Assembly: GCA_902793605.1 (NCBI GenBank)
Contig: CADBEB010000013.1
Location: 1-64,000, forward strand
DNA length: 64,000 nucleotides
Source: an uncultured Eubacteriales bacterium
Lineage (GTDB): Bacteria; Bacillota; Clostridia; Christensenellales; Aristaeellaceae
Reading direction: 5' to 3'
In this document: positions 1,649-25,887 of the stretch, piece after piece
How positions within the stretch are numbered: the stretch's first letter is position 1
Layout of the letters: each line of letters opens with the position of its first letter
Notes under the pieces: model-generated
What the model saw: the letters and a program-made list of their open reading frames with translations, nothing else
The model's database searches: none
What the model was told of the DNA's origin: nothing
Position numbers and translations under genes: made by a program

Positions 1649-4048
1649 TCAGTCCTCGAAGGATTCCGTGTCTTCGGCGCCTTCCCCTTCCGTCTCCTCG
1701 GGCACGGTCTCATAGGATTCGAGCGCGAAGTAGGCGGGCAGGATCGCCTGGGACCAGGTTACCTGGCCGGTGATATAGTAGTTCTGCAGGTACTGGTTGA
1801 AGAAGTCGAAATAGATATTCGAGTAGATCGGGATAGTAGGCAGCACTTCGTTGTAGCGCTCCTGGAACGCGACCCACTTGGACACATATTCGAAGATGTC
1901 GCCGGGCTCGGTCCGCCGCATGTTCACAGCGTCATTCCAGAGCAGCTCATCGTCGGAATAGGTGTTGTTCCAGATCTCGTGGTTCTTGGTCTTGTCCGTC
2001 GAGTAGGTGATGGACGGGTCCACGATGACGTGGAAGTTGGTGGCCAGGTAGATCATGTCGGTTGTGCGTTCCGTCTCACGGTAGTAAGCCTTGAGCAGGT
2101 CCGTCATCGGTGCGGGCACAAGCTCCAGCTTGATGCCGACCCGGGCCAGGTTGTCGATGAAGTTCTTGGACCAGTCACGGCCTTCCACGGCGATCTCGTC
2201 CTTGCCGGCTTCCATCATGATCTCCGCCATATGGTTGCCTTCCGGGTAGAGCATCTTCAGGTCCATCGGCAGGAACGTGCCGTCTTCCATTTTCTTGCAG
2301 CGGACGTCGTCCTTGCCTGCCTGGTACGCGCCGCCTTCGCGGTTGTAGGTCCAGCCGGCCTTGTCCAGCAGGGCGTTGGCCTTGTCCAGGTCCACGCTGT
2401 ATTTTGTGAGCTTGTCCTGCCACTCCTCCGTCAGAGCCTGCCAGGCCGCGATATACATATCGTATTCTTCCTGGGAGGTCGCGTAGAGATTCCGCTTCTT
2501 CAGGTATTCCTTCCGCTTCTCTTCACGGGCTTCCTCGTCCTCGGCGCTGAGCACCTCGGTAACAGGCGGGACCACCTGGTCCAGGAAGTTGACGGGATAA
2601 TCCATCTGGCCGGTCACCAGCAGGTATTCCCACTGTTCGATACCGAAGTAGCCGTCCACACGGGTGCCGAAGCTGACCTTGGTATCGGCGCCTTCCACGG
2701 AATAGCCGCAGTATTCGTTCGTCAGCAGGTCGCGGTCCATGCAGTACGCGATCGCCTGGCGCACTTCCATGTCGTGTACGGTCGGCCAGTCGTAGGTGAA
2801 GGTCAGGAAGGACAGTCCGATCCGCGGATAGTTCTGGGCCTGGATGCCGGCTTCGCGCGCGACGTCACCCTGCAGGCCTTCCCGGATGGTGGGTCCGTAG
2901 GTGACTTTGTTGACCAAGTGCAGCTCGCCGTCGGCCAGCTTCTGGATCATCGTATCGTTGTCCGCTTCGACGAAGGCAATCTTCTCAATCGTGGGCTTGA
3001 CCAGCCAAATCTCACTTCCGCTTGTGTCCAGCTTCGGAACGCCTTCCTCATCCAGCACCTGGATGTAGCGGACGGGGCCGGAATAGTCCGGGCCGGGCAG
3101 GTTGTTGTGATACCAGGCGCCCTTGAAATAGGGGTTAATCTCGTAATGGCCCTCGCCGGTTTCCTTGTCCCAGGACTTCATGATATAGGGGCCGGAAACG
3201 ACGGAAGGATGGGAATTGTAGCCGGTCTCGGGATCCAGGATCGTCTTCTTCAGCAGGTCCACGGTAAACCGGTTGGTCGTATCATTCTGGTCTTCATTGC
3301 CGATATAGACACCGAATCCTTCGTCATAGACCTTGCATCCGGGCGCGATCACCTTGATCGGATACGGAACGGTCATCAGAAGGCCGGTCTCGAAGAAGTA
3401 AGGCAGGAAATCAGCGTCCAGGGTAATGACAAGCTCGTAATCGTTGCGGACTTCCACACCGCTCAGGGAGAGTACGTCGCCTTCGGGGCTGAGGTCCAGG
3501 GGCTCACCGGCCACGACCTTTTTCCGGGTGGCGATGTAGTCGTCATAACCGAGCAGATGCTCCGCACGGTAGATCTTTCCGCCGATCGACGGATCTTCGA
3601 TCTCGGGGCTCATCATCAGCAGGATGGAGAAGGCATAGTCCCATGCGGTGATCTGCGTGCCGTCTGAATAGTACAGGTCGTCCGCAATGAGCATGTCGTA
3701 GGTCTTGTTCCCGACTTCGTCCATCGTGACCTTATATTCGGTGACCACACTGGGGTCAATCACGTAGGTGCCCTGGTTCTGGTCCCAGTTCACCAGGTTG
3801 TAGCCGTGGATCAGGGCGCGGACGTCGATGTCCGCGGTATCGTTGCCGAACAGTTCGGTAAAGAAGTCGCCCTTGGTGATCGTGGGATGGCCGACGATCA
3901 GTTCCTCCGGGAATTCAACATCCGCCGGGGCTTCGGTCGCTTCAGGTTCAGTTTCAGTCACTTCCGCTTCTTCCGCCAGGGAAAGCACAGGCGCCTGGAG
4001 GAGCAGGAGAGCCAGCAGCAGGCTCATGATTTTCTGCAGCTTGTTCAC
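1649..4048 (-). CDS. Large ABC-transporter solute-binding protein (family 5, peptide type)
   Basis: A 799-residue secreted protein with a signal peptide (about residues 1-25, ending LSLAEE). It has the fold signature of oligopeptide/dipeptide binding proteins, including an ADNDTMIQKLADGEL-type segment and a later RQAIAYCMDRDLL segment. It is longer than the usual 500-600 residues; an insert of charged helical sequence near residues 480-540 and an acidic C-terminal tail account for part of this. No lipobox cysteine follows the signal peptide, which is unusual for a Gram-positive binding protein. It lies 22 bases downstream of the Cna-B gene, before a terminator. No permease or ATPase is adjacent, so the transporter partner is unknown. 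Confidence 0.88.
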   Translation of the reverse strand: MNKLQKIMSLLLALLLLQAPVLSLAEEAEVTETEPEATEAPADVEFPEELIVGHPTITKGDFFTELFGNDTADIDVRALIHGYNLVNWDQNQGTYVIDPSVVTEYKVTMDEVGNKTYDMLIADDLYYSDGTQITAWDYAFSILLMMSPEIEDPSIGGKIYRAEHLLGYDDYIATRKKVVAGEPLDLSPEGDVLSLSGVEVRNDYELVITLDADFLPYFFETGLLMTVPYPIKVIAPGCKVYDEGFGVYIGNEDQNDTTNRFTVDLLKKTILDPETGYNSHPSVVSGPYIMKSWDKETGEGHYEINPYFKGAWYHNNLPGPDYSGPVRYIQVLDEEGVPKLDTSGSEIWLVKPTIEKIAFVEADNDTMIQKLADGELHLVNKVTYGPTIREGLQGDVAREAGIQAQNYPRIGLSFLTFTYDWPTVHDMEVRQAIAYCMDRDLLTNEYCGYSVEGADTKVSFGTRVDGYFGIEQWEYLLVTGQMDYPVNFLDQVVPPVTEVLSAEDEEAREEKRKEYLKKRNLYATSQEEYDMYIAAWQALTEEWQDKLTKYSVDLDKANALLDKAGWTYNREGGAYQAGKDDVRCKKMEDGTFLPMDLKMLYPEGNHMAEIMMEAGKDEIAVEGRDWSKNFIDNLARVGIKLELVPAPMTDLLKAYYRETERTTDMIYLATNFHVIVDPSITYSTDKTKNHEIWNNTYSDDELLWNDAVNMRRTEPGDIFEYVSKWVAFQERYNEVLPTIPIYSNIYFDFFNQYLQNYYITGQVTWSQAILPAYFALESYETVPEETEGEGAEDTESFED

Positions 4049-4070
4049 GATGATCAGATCCTTCCTTGTA

Positions 4071-6002
4071 TTAGTCGAAGCAGTCGCCTACATGGTTGAT
4101 CACGACGTTGACGCCCAGCGGCGTATCATAGTCTTCAAAGACGTACCAGGTATTCCCTCTGGTCCTGGGCCGGCGGCCCGCCGTCGGATTCTCCGGGCGC
4201 TCCCAGACCTTGTTGGTGAAGACCATGAGGTTCCCCTGCTGCGTCACGCCTTCGAGCGAGTAACTGAGGACCTGCTGTTCTTTCCAGGCATACTGCGCAT
4301 TCTGTCCGTTCACCACGGTGGGGAGATTATTGACGGTGGCCGTCCAGCCGTTGGCTTCGTTCAGCACGACCACTTTGACGACCTTCTGCCCGTCGGACAG
4401 GCTCATGGCGATGGAAGCAGGCCGGAGGTTCTGCTCGTTGTTGTTGTCGTCCCAGACCTTGGAAACGGAAACGCTCGTAACCTCGGGCTGGTAGTCGTTT
4501 ACGATATTGTAGCCGTTGACCGTCGCTGCGTACATCGCAACCGCGTCTTCACCGACCGTGTAGACAATTTCTGTCTTGTTGTCCTCCTGGTAACGCGGTT
4601 TCTCGGCAAAGGTGAACTGCCAGTTTTCGGCAGCTGTCAGCACATGGCTGTCCACTTCCACGCCGTCGGCATACAGGCGGGCTGTGACGGAAGCGGGCCG
4701 GTTGCCGTCCGCGTTGTTGTTGTCGTTCCAGGTCTTGGTCACCGGGATATCCACAAACTCAGCGTCAGGTTCCGGTGTCGGCGGGATCACATACTGGTTG
4801 AACAGTTTCGCGGTGGCCGTCCCGTCCGCCTTCACATCAACCGCCAGGCCCGTGGTGCTGTTGCTCGTCAGCGTATAATACTTCACCAGTTTTTCCGCGT
4901 TGCGTTCGACCACGGTGTAAACGCCGGGCTCCAGGTCCGGCAGCTCATACTTGCCGTTCTTGAAATCAGAGTATTTGATCGTCAGCGGCGTCGTCCGCGC
5001 GTCGGGTCCGAGGATCTCGAAGGTCAGGTTACCGATATTGGCCAGGGGATCATAATCCTCCTCCACTTCTTCATCAATGGGTTCCTGGAGTTTCCAGGTG
5101 TATCTGAACTCCAGCGTGCGACTTTCACCGTTCTTGACATAAACGGCGTCAGCCACCTTGCTGTTCGCGGGATCCATCACATAGCCTTCGACCAGTGTAT
5201 CCGCATTGGTATCGCGGACCAGGTAGGCGCCTTCGAGCACGGGGCCCAGGCTGACAGTTCCGCCCTTAACATCCGCATAGGTCAGCGTCTTCTTCAGCAG
5301 CGGATCCGGACCGTCAATAGCGAGCTTCAGCCCGCTCAGGTCCGCCCCTTCCGGCGCGTCCAGCGAAACCTTCAGGTTGAGGGTACCCGTTTTCAGGGTA
5401 TTTGTCACCGTCAGTCCGCTGCAATCCGTTGTATACGCGGAGAGCGATTCCATCTGCTTCACGGTATATTCGATATCGCCAGGCAGATTCTCCCAGGTTG
5501 CACTCCAGGCCGGAGCTTTCACCGTCTTCGGTTCGCCGACAGGTTTGCCGTCCCCCTCCAGAATCAGCTGAACGGATTCCGGGCGGGTCTTCCGGCTGTC
5601 GTCAACAGGTTCCCACACCACCTCGGCGGTCTTTGAAACGGTCGGAACGGTCTTTTTGCTGATCCGGTAGATCGTGATTCCGTCTTTATCGGAAACCTGA
5701 ACCGGACTATCATAGCCAGCCGTATTATATTCAAGCCTCCATGATCTGGAATCGGGCACGCTGAGAATCTCACCCGTCCAGTTGTTCGCCTCTGACAAGG
5801 TGATCGGCTTATCGCCATAGTGGGCCGTGATTTGATCCGGTCGGGTTTTGTCGGCATTGTTGTCGTCCGACCATTCGATACCGATGACATGGTAGTCCTC
5901 CTGCGGTTCAGTGGACTCGGCGAGCGCGGTTGTGGTTACACAGCCGAATGCCAGCGCCAGAACGCACAGCAGGGACAGGATTTGGCGTAACCGTTTCTTC
6001 AT
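4071..6002 (-). CDS. Secreted multi-domain Cna-B surface protein
   Basis: About 643 residues with a signal peptide (KKRLRQILSLLCVLALAFG, then cleavage near TTALAES). At least four Cna-B type beta-sandwich repeats are visible from the recurring W-DDNN-x-RP motif (for example KTWNDNNNADGNRP and KVWDDNNNEQNLRP), with SpaA/prealbumin-like segments between them. These domains usually form stalks of adhesins or pili. No LPXTG sorting motif or C-terminal membrane anchor is present; the protein ends in a short tail, GVNVVINHVGDCFD. Of three nearby ATGs (6059, 6008, 6002) the one at 6002 has the best-spaced GAGGGGAG. It is co-transcribed with the downstream solute-binding protein gene. Confidence 0.85.
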   Translation of the reverse strand: MKKRLRQILSLLCVLALAFGCVTTTALAESTEPQEDYHVIGIEWSDDNNADKTRPDQITAHYGDKPITLSEANNWTGEILSVPDSRSWRLEYNTAGYDSPVQVSDKDGITIYRISKKTVPTVSKTAEVVWEPVDDSRKTRPESVQLILEGDGKPVGEPKTVKAPAWSATWENLPGDIEYTVKQMESLSAYTTDCSGLTVTNTLKTGTLNLKVSLDAPEGADLSGLKLAIDGPDPLLKKTLTYADVKGGTVSLGPVLEGAYLVRDTNADTLVEGYVMDPANSKVADAVYVKNGESRTLEFRYTWKLQEPIDEEVEEDYDPLANIGNLTFEILGPDARTTPLTIKYSDFKNGKYELPDLEPGVYTVVERNAEKLVKYYTLTSNSTTGLAVDVKADGTATAKLFNQYVIPPTPEPDAEFVDIPVTKTWNDNNNADGNRPASVTARLYADGVEVDSHVLTAAENWQFTFAEKPRYQEDNKTEIVYTVGEDAVAMYAATVNGYNIVNDYQPEVTSVSVSKVWDDNNNEQNLRPASIAMSLSDGQKVVKVVVLNEANGWTATVNNLPTVVNGQNAQYAWKEQQVLSYSLEGVTQQGNLMVFTNKVWERPENPTAGRRPRTRGNTWYVFEDYDTPLGVNVVINHVGDCFD

Positions 6003-23582: not shown

Positions 23583-23611
23583 ATAATATCATTCGCCCCT
23601 TTTTCTGTCAA
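23583..23611 (-). promoter_or_regulatory. Promoter of the DegV gene
   Basis: On the minus strand TTGACA (23611-23606) and TATTAT (23588-23583) are 17 bases apart. It is divergent from the leader promoter at 23657. Confidence 0.8.
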
Positions 23612-23656
23612 CCGAAGGAAAGGCGAGGAAAAACATTCAGAGTACAAAACAAACAG

Positions 23657-23685
23657 TTGACAAGGTGTGTTCCCGGTTTTATGAT
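23657..23685 (+). promoter_or_regulatory. Consensus promoter of the phenylalanine leader
   Basis: TTGACA (23657-23662) and TATGAT (23680-23685) have exactly 17 bases between them. Transcription should start near 23692 and run through the leader peptide and terminator into the phenylacetate-CoA ligase gene. Confidence 0.9.
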
Positions 23686-23728
23686 GCTTTCAACGGCACG
23701 GCTTCCGTACAGAGAGGAGATCTCACCG

Positions 23729-23776
23729 ATGAGATTGTACACCGCCTTCTTTTTTACCAGGTCAGCGATGGATTGA
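23729..23776 (+). CDS. Phe-rich leader peptide (attenuator)
   Basis: A 15-codon reading frame encodes MRLYTAFFFTRSAMD. Codons 7-9 (TTC TTT TTT, 23747-23755) are consecutive Phe codons, after a Tyr codon at position 4. GAGGAG (23714-23719) lies nine bases before the ATG. The design copies enterobacterial pheA-type leader peptides: a ribosome starved for Phe-tRNA would stall just before the segment 23765-23774 that can form an antiterminator. Too short for ordinary gene callers; its reality rests on promoter, ribosome binding site, Phe run and paired structures together. Confidence 0.75.
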   Translation: MRLYTAFFFTRSAMD

Positions 23777-23838
23777 TCCGGCGCATCAAGCGTTTTAATC
23801 CACCGCCTTTTGAGTTGGAAAAGGCGGTGGATTTTTTT
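23765..23838 (+). terminator. Attenuator: terminator and competing antiterminator
   Basis: Terminator: a 14-bp perfect stem ATCCACCGCCTTTT (23798-23811) with 23819-23832, a 7-base loop, then TTTTTT. Antiterminator: GCGATGGATT (23765-23774), which overlaps the leader stop codon, can pair with AATCCACCGC (23797-23806), 9 of 10 pairs, destroying the terminator. The Phe codons end ten bases before this segment, so a stalled ribosome would leave it free while a finished one would cover it. Confidence 0.8.
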
Positions 23839-24021
23839 GAGGAATTGTCCAAATCTCCGATTTGGGTAACAATTCCCATGCTACAGCTGTCAAAGGCAGG
23901 GAGCTGAAAGCGAACCTGGCTTTGGTAACAGCGATCGCAGAGGAATTCTTCTCAGACCCCGTCGCTGACCTGTATCGTAAGCCCTTCCAACGCATCAAAT
24001 GATCAGGAGGTATCCCGCGTT
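23839..24021 (+). other. Leader-to-gene spacer with hairpin and an open frame
   Basis: A second hairpin (GGAATTG at 23841-23847 with CAATTCC at 23870-23876, inner CAAATC/GATTTG) follows the terminator. A frame without a start codon is open from 23841 to the stop at 24000-24002 and encodes protein-like sequence (for example ELKANLALVTAIAEEFFSD). It may be the 3' remnant of an old gene. Otherwise nothing is seen before the AGGAGG of the next gene. Confidence 0.35.
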
Positions 24022-25326
24022 ATGAAACAGTATTACCAGCCGGAGATCGAAACCGCCCCCCGGGAAAAGATCCTGGAGATCCAGAACGAGAAGATCGTCA
24101 AACAGGTTCGCCATGTCTGGGACAATGTGCCCTATTACCGTCACCTGATGGAGAAGAAGGGCGTCACCCCGGACGATATCAAAAGCGTAGACGATATCCG
24201 CAAGCTCCCCTTCCTCAGCAAGGACGACCTGCGCGAAGCCTATCCCTACGGCCTGCTGGGCACGGACCTGAAGGACTGCGTCCGCATCCAGTCCACCTCC
24301 GGCACCACCGGCAAGCGCGTAGTCGCCTTCTATACCCAGCATGACATCGACCTCTGGGAAGACTGCACTGCCCGCGCGATCGTCGCCGCCGGCGGCACCA
24401 AAGAGGACGTCGTCCAGGTCTGCTACGGCTACGGCCTGTTCACCGGCGGCCCCGGGCTTCACGGCGGCTCCCATAAGGTCGGCTGCCTGACCCTGCCGAT
24501 GTCCTCCGGCAATACCGAACGGCAGATCCAGTTCATGATGGACCTGAACGCCACCATTCTCTGCTGTACGCCCTCCTATGCCGCCTACATCGGCGAGACG
24601 CTGGCGGAGCAGGGATATAAGCCGGAAGACAACCATCTGAAAGCCGGTATCTTCGGTGCTGAACCCTGGACGGAGGAAATGCGGCAGGAGATCGAGAAAA
24701 GTCTGGGTATCAAAGCTTACGACATTTACGGCCTCACGGAGACGAGCGGTCCCGGGGTGGCCTATGAATGCGAAGAGCAGAACGGCATGCACATCAATGA
24801 GGATCACTTCTATGCCGAGATCATTGATCCGGAAACCGGGGAAGTCCTTCCGGACGGAACAAAGGGCGAACTGGTCTTCACCTCCCTGGACAAGGAAGCC
24901 TTCCCGCTTCTGCGCTACCGCACGAAGGATATCTGCGTCCTGAACCGGGTGCCCTGCTCCTGCGGCCGGACCCATGTGCGCATGAGCAAACCCATGGGCC
25001 GCAGCGATGACATGATGATCATCCGCGGCGTCAACGTCTTCCCGAGCCAGATCGAAGCCGTGCTTCTGAAGGAAGGCTACACCCCCAACTACCAGATCGT
25101 GGTGGACCGCGTCCGCAACAGCGATACCTTCGACATCTATGTCGAGGTCGCGCCGGATCAGTTCTCCGACCTGATGAGCCAGATCCAGCTGATGGAAAAG
25201 AGCCTCGAGTCCGCCCTGCGCACCATGCTCGGCATCGGGCCCAAAGTCCACCTCGTCGCTCCCAAGACCATCACCCGCAGCGAAGGCAAAGCCGTTCGTG
25301 TGATTGACAAACGGAAGCTCCACTGA
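24022..25326 (+). CDS. paaK: Phenylacetate-CoA ligase (aryl-CoA ligase)
   Basis: A 434-residue adenylate-forming enzyme of the PaaK type, which makes aryl-acetyl-CoA from the acid, CoA and ATP. Motifs: the P-loop STSGTTGKRV, DIYGLTETSGPG in the active site, the C-terminal YRTKD hinge region, and a last lysine-containing EGKAVRV. Four Cys in the CSCG region may bind zinc. In rumen and gut anaerobes these ligases serve reductive carboxylation of phenylacetate (or indoleacetate) to the 2-oxo acid and then Phe/Trp. That fits the Phe-controlled leader upstream and the ACT protein downstream. The exact arylacetate is not determined. Confidence 0.93.
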   Translation: MKQYYQPEIETAPREKILEIQNEKIVKQVRHVWDNVPYYRHLMEKKGVTPDDIKSVDDIRKLPFLSKDDLREAYPYGLLGTDLKDCVRIQSTSGTTGKRVVAFYTQHDIDLWEDCTARAIVAAGGTKEDVVQVCYGYGLFTGGPGLHGGSHKVGCLTLPMSSGNTERQIQFMMDLNATILCCTPSYAAYIGETLAEQGYKPEDNHLKAGIFGAEPWTEEMRQEIEKSLGIKAYDIYGLTETSGPGVAYECEEQNGMHINEDHFYAEIIDPETGEVLPDGTKGELVFTSLDKEAFPLLRYRTKDICVLNRVPCSCGRTHVRMSKPMGRSDDMMIIRGVNVFPSQIEAVLLKEGYTPNYQIVVDRVRNSDTFDIYVEVAPDQFSDLMSQIQLMEKSLESALRTMLGIGPKVHLVAPKTITRSEGKAVRVIDKRKLH

Positions 25327-25461: not shown

Positions 25462-25887
25462 ATGGCGATCACACAGTTATCCGTCTTTCTGATGAACCAG
25501 CCCGGCGCGCTGGTGGATGCCGTCAGCGCCATTTCCGGTGCCGGAGCGAACATCCGTGCCATGAGCATTGCCGAAGCCAACGACTTCGGTATCCTGCGGA
25601 TCATCGTGTCCGACTCGGACCGGATCTGTAAACTTCTCGGTGACAAGTACCTGATCTCCAAGACCGAGGTCGTCGCTGCCCGCATGGATGACCGCAGCGG
25701 CGCGCTCTATCCGATCCTGGCCGTTCTGAGCGAAGCCAACATCAACATCGAATATATGTACGCTTTTACCGGTTCCGGACCGGACGAAGCCTATGTCGTC
25801 TTCCGCGTCAACGATGCGAAAACCGCCGAGGAGGTCCTGAATGCCAACGGCATCAGCACCCTCTCTGACGAGAACCTCAAACTGTAA
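25462..25887 (+). CDS. Tandem ACT-domain protein
   Basis: A 141-residue protein made of two ACT domains (about residues 3-68 and 72-138). Each has the beta-alpha-beta start with a glycine turn (NQPGALVDAVSAISGAGANI in the first). ACT pairs bind amino acids and regulate enzymes allosterically. Proteins of this kind are commonly found beside phenylacetate-CoA ligase and indolepyruvate ferredoxin oxidoreductase genes, so aromatic amino acids are the likely ligands. AAGGAGG precedes the ATG; about 135 bases separate it from the ligase gene on the same strand. Confidence 0.92.
   Translation: MAITQLSVFLMNQPGALVDAVSAISGAGANIRAMSIAEANDFGILRIIVSDSDRICKLLGDKYLISKTEVVAARMDDRSGALYPILAVLSEANINIEYMYAFTGSGPDEAYVVFRVNDAKTAEEVLNANGISTLSDENLKL

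Follow-up and report, generated by a model that had tools for sequence, protein, structure and literature searches.

The gene of an arylacetate-CoA ligase, paaK, is probably treated as a phenylalanine-biosynthetic gene in Clostridia of the ruminant gut. It is found behind three apparently independent sensors of Phe-tRNA, and one of these comes from an RNA family that would also govern pheA, aroF and aroB-aroC across several families. In the window, i.e., the whole stretch of 64 kb that was analyzed, the elements in front of paaK very probably constitute a ribosome-mediated attenuator that responds to the charging state of tRNA-Phe and acts on a PaaK-like ligase together with an ACT-domain protein (Table 1).

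The probable attenuator in front of paaK

Upon re-reading of the sequence the promoter, the Shine-Dalgarno stretch GAGGAG, the leader peptide, the three Phe codons and the antiterminator were all found at the coordinates given in the original prediction. The -35 hexamer TTGACA (23657-23662) and the -10 hexamer TATGAT (23680-23685) are separated by a spacer of 17 nt, and in a consensus scan of 10 kb, which gave six promoter-like sites, this one belongs to the top two. GAGGAG is located at a distance of 9 nt from the ATG of the leader. The antiterminator is built from GCGATGGATT (23765-23774) and AATCCACCGC (23797-23806) with nine of ten positions paired, the exception being an A.C mismatch. The tenth base past the Phe codons is the first of its 5' arm, and the last base of this arm is also the T of the TGA stop codon (23774-23776). 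The terminator is present as predicted; the 14 bp originally given for its stem were slightly too few, as it comprises 15 perfect pairs (23797-23811 with 23819-23833), closed by a loop of 7 nt and followed by a T-tract at 23832-23838.

Table 1. Features of the attenuator and of the genes that it precedes, in positions of the window.
Feature	Position	Strand	Support
Sigma-70-type promoter, TTGACA-17-TATGAT	23657..23685	+	consensus scan; similar hexamers at the equivalent place in relatives
Shine-Dalgarno sequence of the leader peptide, GAGGAG	23714..23719	+	sequence; SD-like stretch before the leader in relatives
Leader peptide MRLYTAFFFTRSAMD with stop codon	23729..23776	+	sequence; homologous leaders upstream of paaK at 21 loci in the genus
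Phe control codons TTC TTT TTT	23747..23755	+	of the 21 paaK leaders of the genus, 18 have FFF and 3 have FAF
Antiterminator 5' arm (region 2), encoding AMD and the T of the stop codon	23765..23774	+	GCGATGGA invariant in 24 loci
Small hairpin at the antiterminator tip, GGCGC/GCGTT here	23780..23794	+	compensating stems in relatives
Antiterminator 3' arm (region 3), common to the terminator 5' arm	23797..23806	+	sequence, pairing
Intrinsic terminator, 15 bp and T-tract	23797..23838	+	fold, terminator scan, conservation
PaaK-like aryl-CoA ligase (regulated gene)	24022..25326	+	AMP-binding, AMP-binding_C_2; TIGR02155
Double-ACT-domain protein (PF19571), downstream gene	25462..25887	+	Pfam

Two hallmarks of an attenuator, an SD-led leader ORF with a Phe run and a terminator before the structural gene, are both present at the locus, and the third, an alternative antiterminator whose 5' arm would be free at a Phe stall and covered at the stop codon, is found in terms of geometry and pairing. 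This geometry presumes the usual size of a ribosome footprint. With plentiful Phe-tRNA the ribosome would pass the FFF run up to the stop codon and cover 23765-23774; with this 5' arm covered the terminator hairpin (23797-23838) would form and transcription would end before paaK. With Phe-tRNA in short supply the ribosome would stall on the Phe codons, its footprint would leave 23765-23774 free by a narrow margin, and the free arm would pair with 23797-23806, by which the terminator would be prevented and paaK transcribed. We infer the stalling of the ribosome, the termination and the direction of the response from the arrangement of these elements in the sequence.

A stretch within the leader, ACCGCCTTCTTT (23741-23752), could form pairs with AAAAGGCGGT, the 3' arm of the terminator, and does so in the minimum-energy structure calculated for the entire leader. 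It was not retained as a part of the attenuator: this pairing, which in the leader extends from 23740 onward, depends on ACCGCC, which is present only in the leader of this genome. Because it is missing in the relatives, it is probably specific to this genome.

A dispersed repeat of this genome (23838-23942) is located in the gap between the terminator and paaK and begins with the near-palindrome GGAATTGTCCAAATCTCCGATTTGGGTAACAATTCC. Copies with matches of 40-104 bp and 76-88% identity are located on contigs C27, C9, C16, and C32, the latter with two places, and a similar stretch lies between terminator and paaK in genome G001 (L012). The repeat is possibly a small element, either mobile or structured.

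Conservation within the genus

The genus was sampled with 45 species, in which 26 loci with a paaK orthologue were found (86-100% amino acid identity over the whole or nearly the whole length). A homologous leader, in which FFF or FAF is followed by AMD and a stop codon, is present at 21 of the 26 loci together with the antiterminator arms and the terminator, and the spacing between Phe run and antiterminator is constant across these leaders. The hypothesis thereby survived a check of homologous loci for a missing Phe run or terminator. GCGATGGA, CCACCGCCTTTT, and AAAGGCGG are invariant in the genus, and the remaining leader and the tip of the antiterminator are variable. The hairpin at this tip is kept by compensating changes (GCGC/GCGC, ACGC/GCGT, GCGT/ACGC, and CGCG/CGCG). 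The two main helices barely covary, and because they are nearly invariant, covariation within the genus cannot test them.

Upstream of five of the 26 orthologues (L014, L020, L021, L025, and L026) the element is absent, and at L020 and L021, for example, promoter-like sequence near paaK takes its place. As the five non-carriers sit beside carriers on the PaaK tree, a single gain or a single loss explains the pattern. The presence of orthologues without the element also means that the control is not essential to the enzyme.

The same element at genes of aromatic biosynthesis

Further members were searched with a covariance model of the leader and then with a version widened with the first new members; each retained match was read by eye and only matches with an aromatic leader were retained. 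Representative downstream proteins were assigned by Pfam (PDT, CM_2, DAHP_synth_1, and DHQ_synthase) and the others were named by eye from similarity. Within the genus, the element is located upstream of prephenate dehydratase (pheA/PDT) and DAHP synthase (aroF) at L079 (FFF, MRPYVSGFFFSRSAMD), upstream of chorismate mutase-prephenate dehydratase, aroB and aroC at L081 and L082 (MFAYSYFYFYSIAMDS and MFANSYYYFYSPAMDG, respectively) and upstream of aroB at L080 and L177. Other genera of the same family have it before the CM-PDT-aroB-aroC kind of operon (L172, L175, and L089) and, in one of them, upstream of paaK (L084). In another family of the order it precedes prephenate dehydratase and DAHP synthase at four loci (L179, L180, L182, and L183; e.g., MKLYTVNFFFTQESDV), and at class level one member (L282; MNKYSTKNFFFFRHAMDRSI, with FFFF) stands before chorismate mutase-prephenate dehydratase and aroB. 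The control codons are FFF or FFFF before pheA and runs of Tyr/Phe before the aro operons.

Five genomes (G008, G020, G021, G025, and G042) carry the element at a paaK-type locus and also at a locus of aromatic biosynthesis, with the paaK-type copy of G025 lying at a contig end and its downstream gene beyond the contig. This distribution suggests a regulon for the supply of aromatic amino acids, with paaK as a member. Directly upstream of PDT genes the attenuator was not found in most members of the genus, this genome included.

The genomes with FAF at the paaK-type locus (G042, G008, G021, and G025; leaders L004, L005, L007, and L083) are those with a Tyr/Phe-type leader at an aro/pheA operon (L173, L080, L081, and L177).

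Weak matches of the models were each read singly and rejected as ordinary terminators or chance without an aromatic leader. These are L085-L088, L090-L098, L174, L176, L178, L181, L184, L185, and L187, and at class level L281, L283, L284, L286, and L287.

Other phenylalanine sensors in front of orthologous paaK genes

Scanning named genomes for paaK orthologues yielded 80 loci (77-90% identity), almost all of them in Clostridia MAGs and many from the ruminant gut. The leader type of the window is present at three of these loci. Six loci of another clade carry a second, longer and unrelated Phe-rich leader (e.g., MNRTLCTVNNFFFSFYFSFTGARRKVDLSC) that is followed by a terminator; in shuffled upstream regions a comparable ORF was obtained at 1.8 loci per 80, compared with the six observed. 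The antiterminator of this second class is formed by GGTTRAT and an ATYRACC-like stretch in the terminator loop, and an A-U pair is exchanged for a G-C pair in half of the six loci, with the pairs read by eye.

In a third clade, a T-box is located shortly before paaK at eight loci, seven of which reach the Rfam gathering score (RF00230) at 83-129 nt upstream and the eighth of which (L245) was recognized by its pattern. In each of the eight, UUC follows the GAA that is conserved in the specifier loop (GAA-UUC), the specifier position being taken from the consensus and from general knowledge of T-boxes (compare PMC2494555). All eight also have the T-loop AGGTGGTACCACG, and this matches a tRNA whose discriminator base is A, the base to be expected for tRNA-Phe. 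At one locus (L258) a second T-box lies downstream of paaK (3885-4134) and reads CUG, which is Leu-like, at the specifier position, and the T-box before paaK reads UUC.

In a tree built from 106 PaaK proteins, the carriers of each type of sensor fall into one group. By these comparisons three sensors of Phe-tRNA charging at one gene are apparently non-homologous, which would be difficult to account for if the enzyme had no importance for the supply of Phe.

The regulated gene and its probable physiological role

The ligase matches TIGR02155 over the full length with 524.3 bits, which is below the curated cut-off of 646.3 and classifies the enzyme as PaaK-like only and not as an equivalog; phenylacetate is therefore a presumed substrate. 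At 74 of the 80 orthologous loci the ACT gene directly follows paaK, and at 38 of the 80 iorB directly precedes it. This genome encodes iorA (indolepyruvate ferredoxin oxidoreductase, above the curated cut-off) and iorB beside another CoA ligase. At this locus (L129, G000:C16:117883-119622) iorA-iorB directly follows this second ligase, which is AMP-forming and unrelated; it may duplicate the role of paaK or provide a different acyl-CoA.

Whether rumen anaerobes synthesize Phe from phenylacetate is an old question. PaaK would convert an arylacetate, probably phenylacetate, to the arylacetyl-CoA, IorAB would form the arylpyruvate from it by reductive carboxylation, and an aminotransferase would yield Phe. 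A prephenate dehydratase is also encoded in this genome and therefore the arylacetate route would be supplementary to synthesis from chorismate. A second prephenate dehydratase of the genome (L186, G000:C23, approximately 14700 onward) starts with the signal-peptide-like MKKNRMFIILLCAVLTMMNLTAFAIAEE, and this sequence suggests an exported PDT-like protein.

The Phe-tRNA control that was originally proposed is upheld by the conservation among the orthologues of the genus, by the same element at pheA, aroF, aroB and aroC, and by the use of other Phe sensors in two clades. Its proposed purpose, the assimilation of an arylacetate for Phe synthesis, continues to be the best reading and is the probable one; it fits the regulon and the linkage with IorAB, for a presumed substrate and a presumed direction of the reaction. 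It is conceivable though unlikely that the attenuator is real and sensitive to Phe-tRNA and the ligase has another role, e.g., toward another arylacetyl-CoA or as a step of oxidative aryl acid fermentation, in which case Phe would be a mere signal of the aromatic status. IorAB and acyl-CoA ligases are able to run oxidatively, the ligase scores under the equivalog cut-off, and no Phe sensor precedes those orthologues of the genus that belong to iorAB operons, as a search upstream of iorA in these operons revealed no leader. However, the three unrelated sensors at paaK all specify Phe, dedicated genes of Phe and aromatic biosynthesis are preceded by the same element, and an opening on starvation suits supply rather than breakdown.

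Constraint on the RNA

Outside the genus, the conserved parts of the attenuator change in a manner that points to selection on the RNA. In the other family the antiterminator GCGATGTGT/ACGCACCGC replaces GCGATGGAT/ATCCACCGC by compensatory changes with the A.C mismatch retained. In family f16 the nucleotides GCGATG are read as SDV-stop in three loci, i.e., in another frame, and as AMC-stop in one locus in the original frame, and conserved nucleotides that are read in two frames imply that the constraint is on the RNA. These data bear on the idea that the leader works through its AMD end, as an arrest peptide or otherwise at the level of the peptide, with the RNA helices of secondary importance. 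All leaders of the genus, as well as the Tyr-type leaders, retain AMD, yet the stop codon shifts (AMD-stop, AMDE-stop, AMDG-stop, and AMDGRG-stop) and in f16 the RNA is conserved and not the peptide, which makes an action of the peptide very improbable.

The A.C mismatch of the antiterminator is kept in every member, also in the other family with its changed neighboring pairs. It may have a role in tuning the balance with the terminator, as a G at this position would result in a perfect helix.

Chance and folding

For a test of chance occurrence the pattern was defined as a short ORF that is preceded by an SD and contains FFF, with a perfectly paired terminator stem of at least 11 bp no more than 110 nt downstream. 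It occurs once in the window and in none of 60 dinucleotide shuffles. Folding resulted in z = -4.4 for 23712-23838 and z = -4.0 for 23757-23838. When leaders were folded up to the terminator loop, the antiterminator helix was predicted in 36 of 36 (7-8 of 9 positions paired), and in these 36 leaders the terminator was predicted once region 2 was masked or from the 3' part alone. Equilibrium folding from region 2 onward prefers the terminator in most sequences, so that antitermination would have to be kinetic, as in known attenuators. On sequence grounds a chance origin of the element is ruled out, and its conservation is decisive for this. That an ordinary or constitutive terminator stands behind a spurious short ORF with no regulation at all is hardly credible: strong terminators are indeed common nearby (21 terminator-like sites in a scan of 10 kb), but the arrangement did not arise in the shuffles, and leader, antiterminator and terminator are conserved together and are reused at pheA/aro operons.

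Relation to known systems

The leader attenuators pheL-pheA and pheM of enterobacteria consist of a short Phe-rich leader and an antiterminator that competes with a terminator, and they open on Phe starvation. The element described here resembles them in its Phe-rich leader and its competing helices, and several copies in relatives likewise precede pheA; it differs in the taxon and in its target, which is an aryl-CoA ligase in the window. T-boxes are the rule in Firmicutes. The T-box RF00230, with a Stem I that contains the specifier loop and the antiterminator AGGTGGNACC, likewise senses uncharged tRNA, and Phe T-boxes take the same place before paaK in another clade. The window locus has no match to this family and, unlike a T-box, would read Phe-tRNA via translation of a leader peptide. 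Searches against Rfam 15 gave no match at gathering score in the window and none that is meaningful for 23600-24030 at a relaxed threshold.

Leader-peptide attenuators in or near the Firmicutes were described for other amino acids or genes and belong to other RNA families. His leader peptides were found in bacilli by authors who knew of none shown outside Proteobacteria and Actinobacteria, such leaders being rarely reported in Firmicutes (PMC2965389). A Leu-rich attenuator peptide was described in Staphylococcus aureus (PMC5794164), and uORFC-13-1 before aroF in Acholeplasma is a candidate leader with Phe codon(s) (PMC8632094). A Phe leader or a T-box on paaK was not found in the open-licence literature searched, which is weak evidence for novelty. 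To the PaaK enzymes of TIGR02155 with IorAB, the ligase is related by full-length similarity and by the IorAB neighbors of many orthologues, and it is distinguished from them by the ACT-domain partner and by control through Phe starvation instead of catabolic induction. The attenuator represents a known mechanism, classical ribosome-mediated attenuation, on an apparently undescribed target in Clostridia, with an RNA family outside Rfam.

The target enzyme is usually annotated as catabolic, and its regulation by three Phe sensors would give PaaK-like ligases, a large group in bacteria of the ruminant gut, a physiological role. The attenuator family provides a searchable signature for aromatic biosynthesis genes of uncultured Clostridia, and the question of Phe formation from phenylacetate in rumen anaerobes becomes testable by genetics combined with isotope labeling. 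If the proposed role is true, it would define a regulated pathway of Phe supply from environmental phenylacetate.
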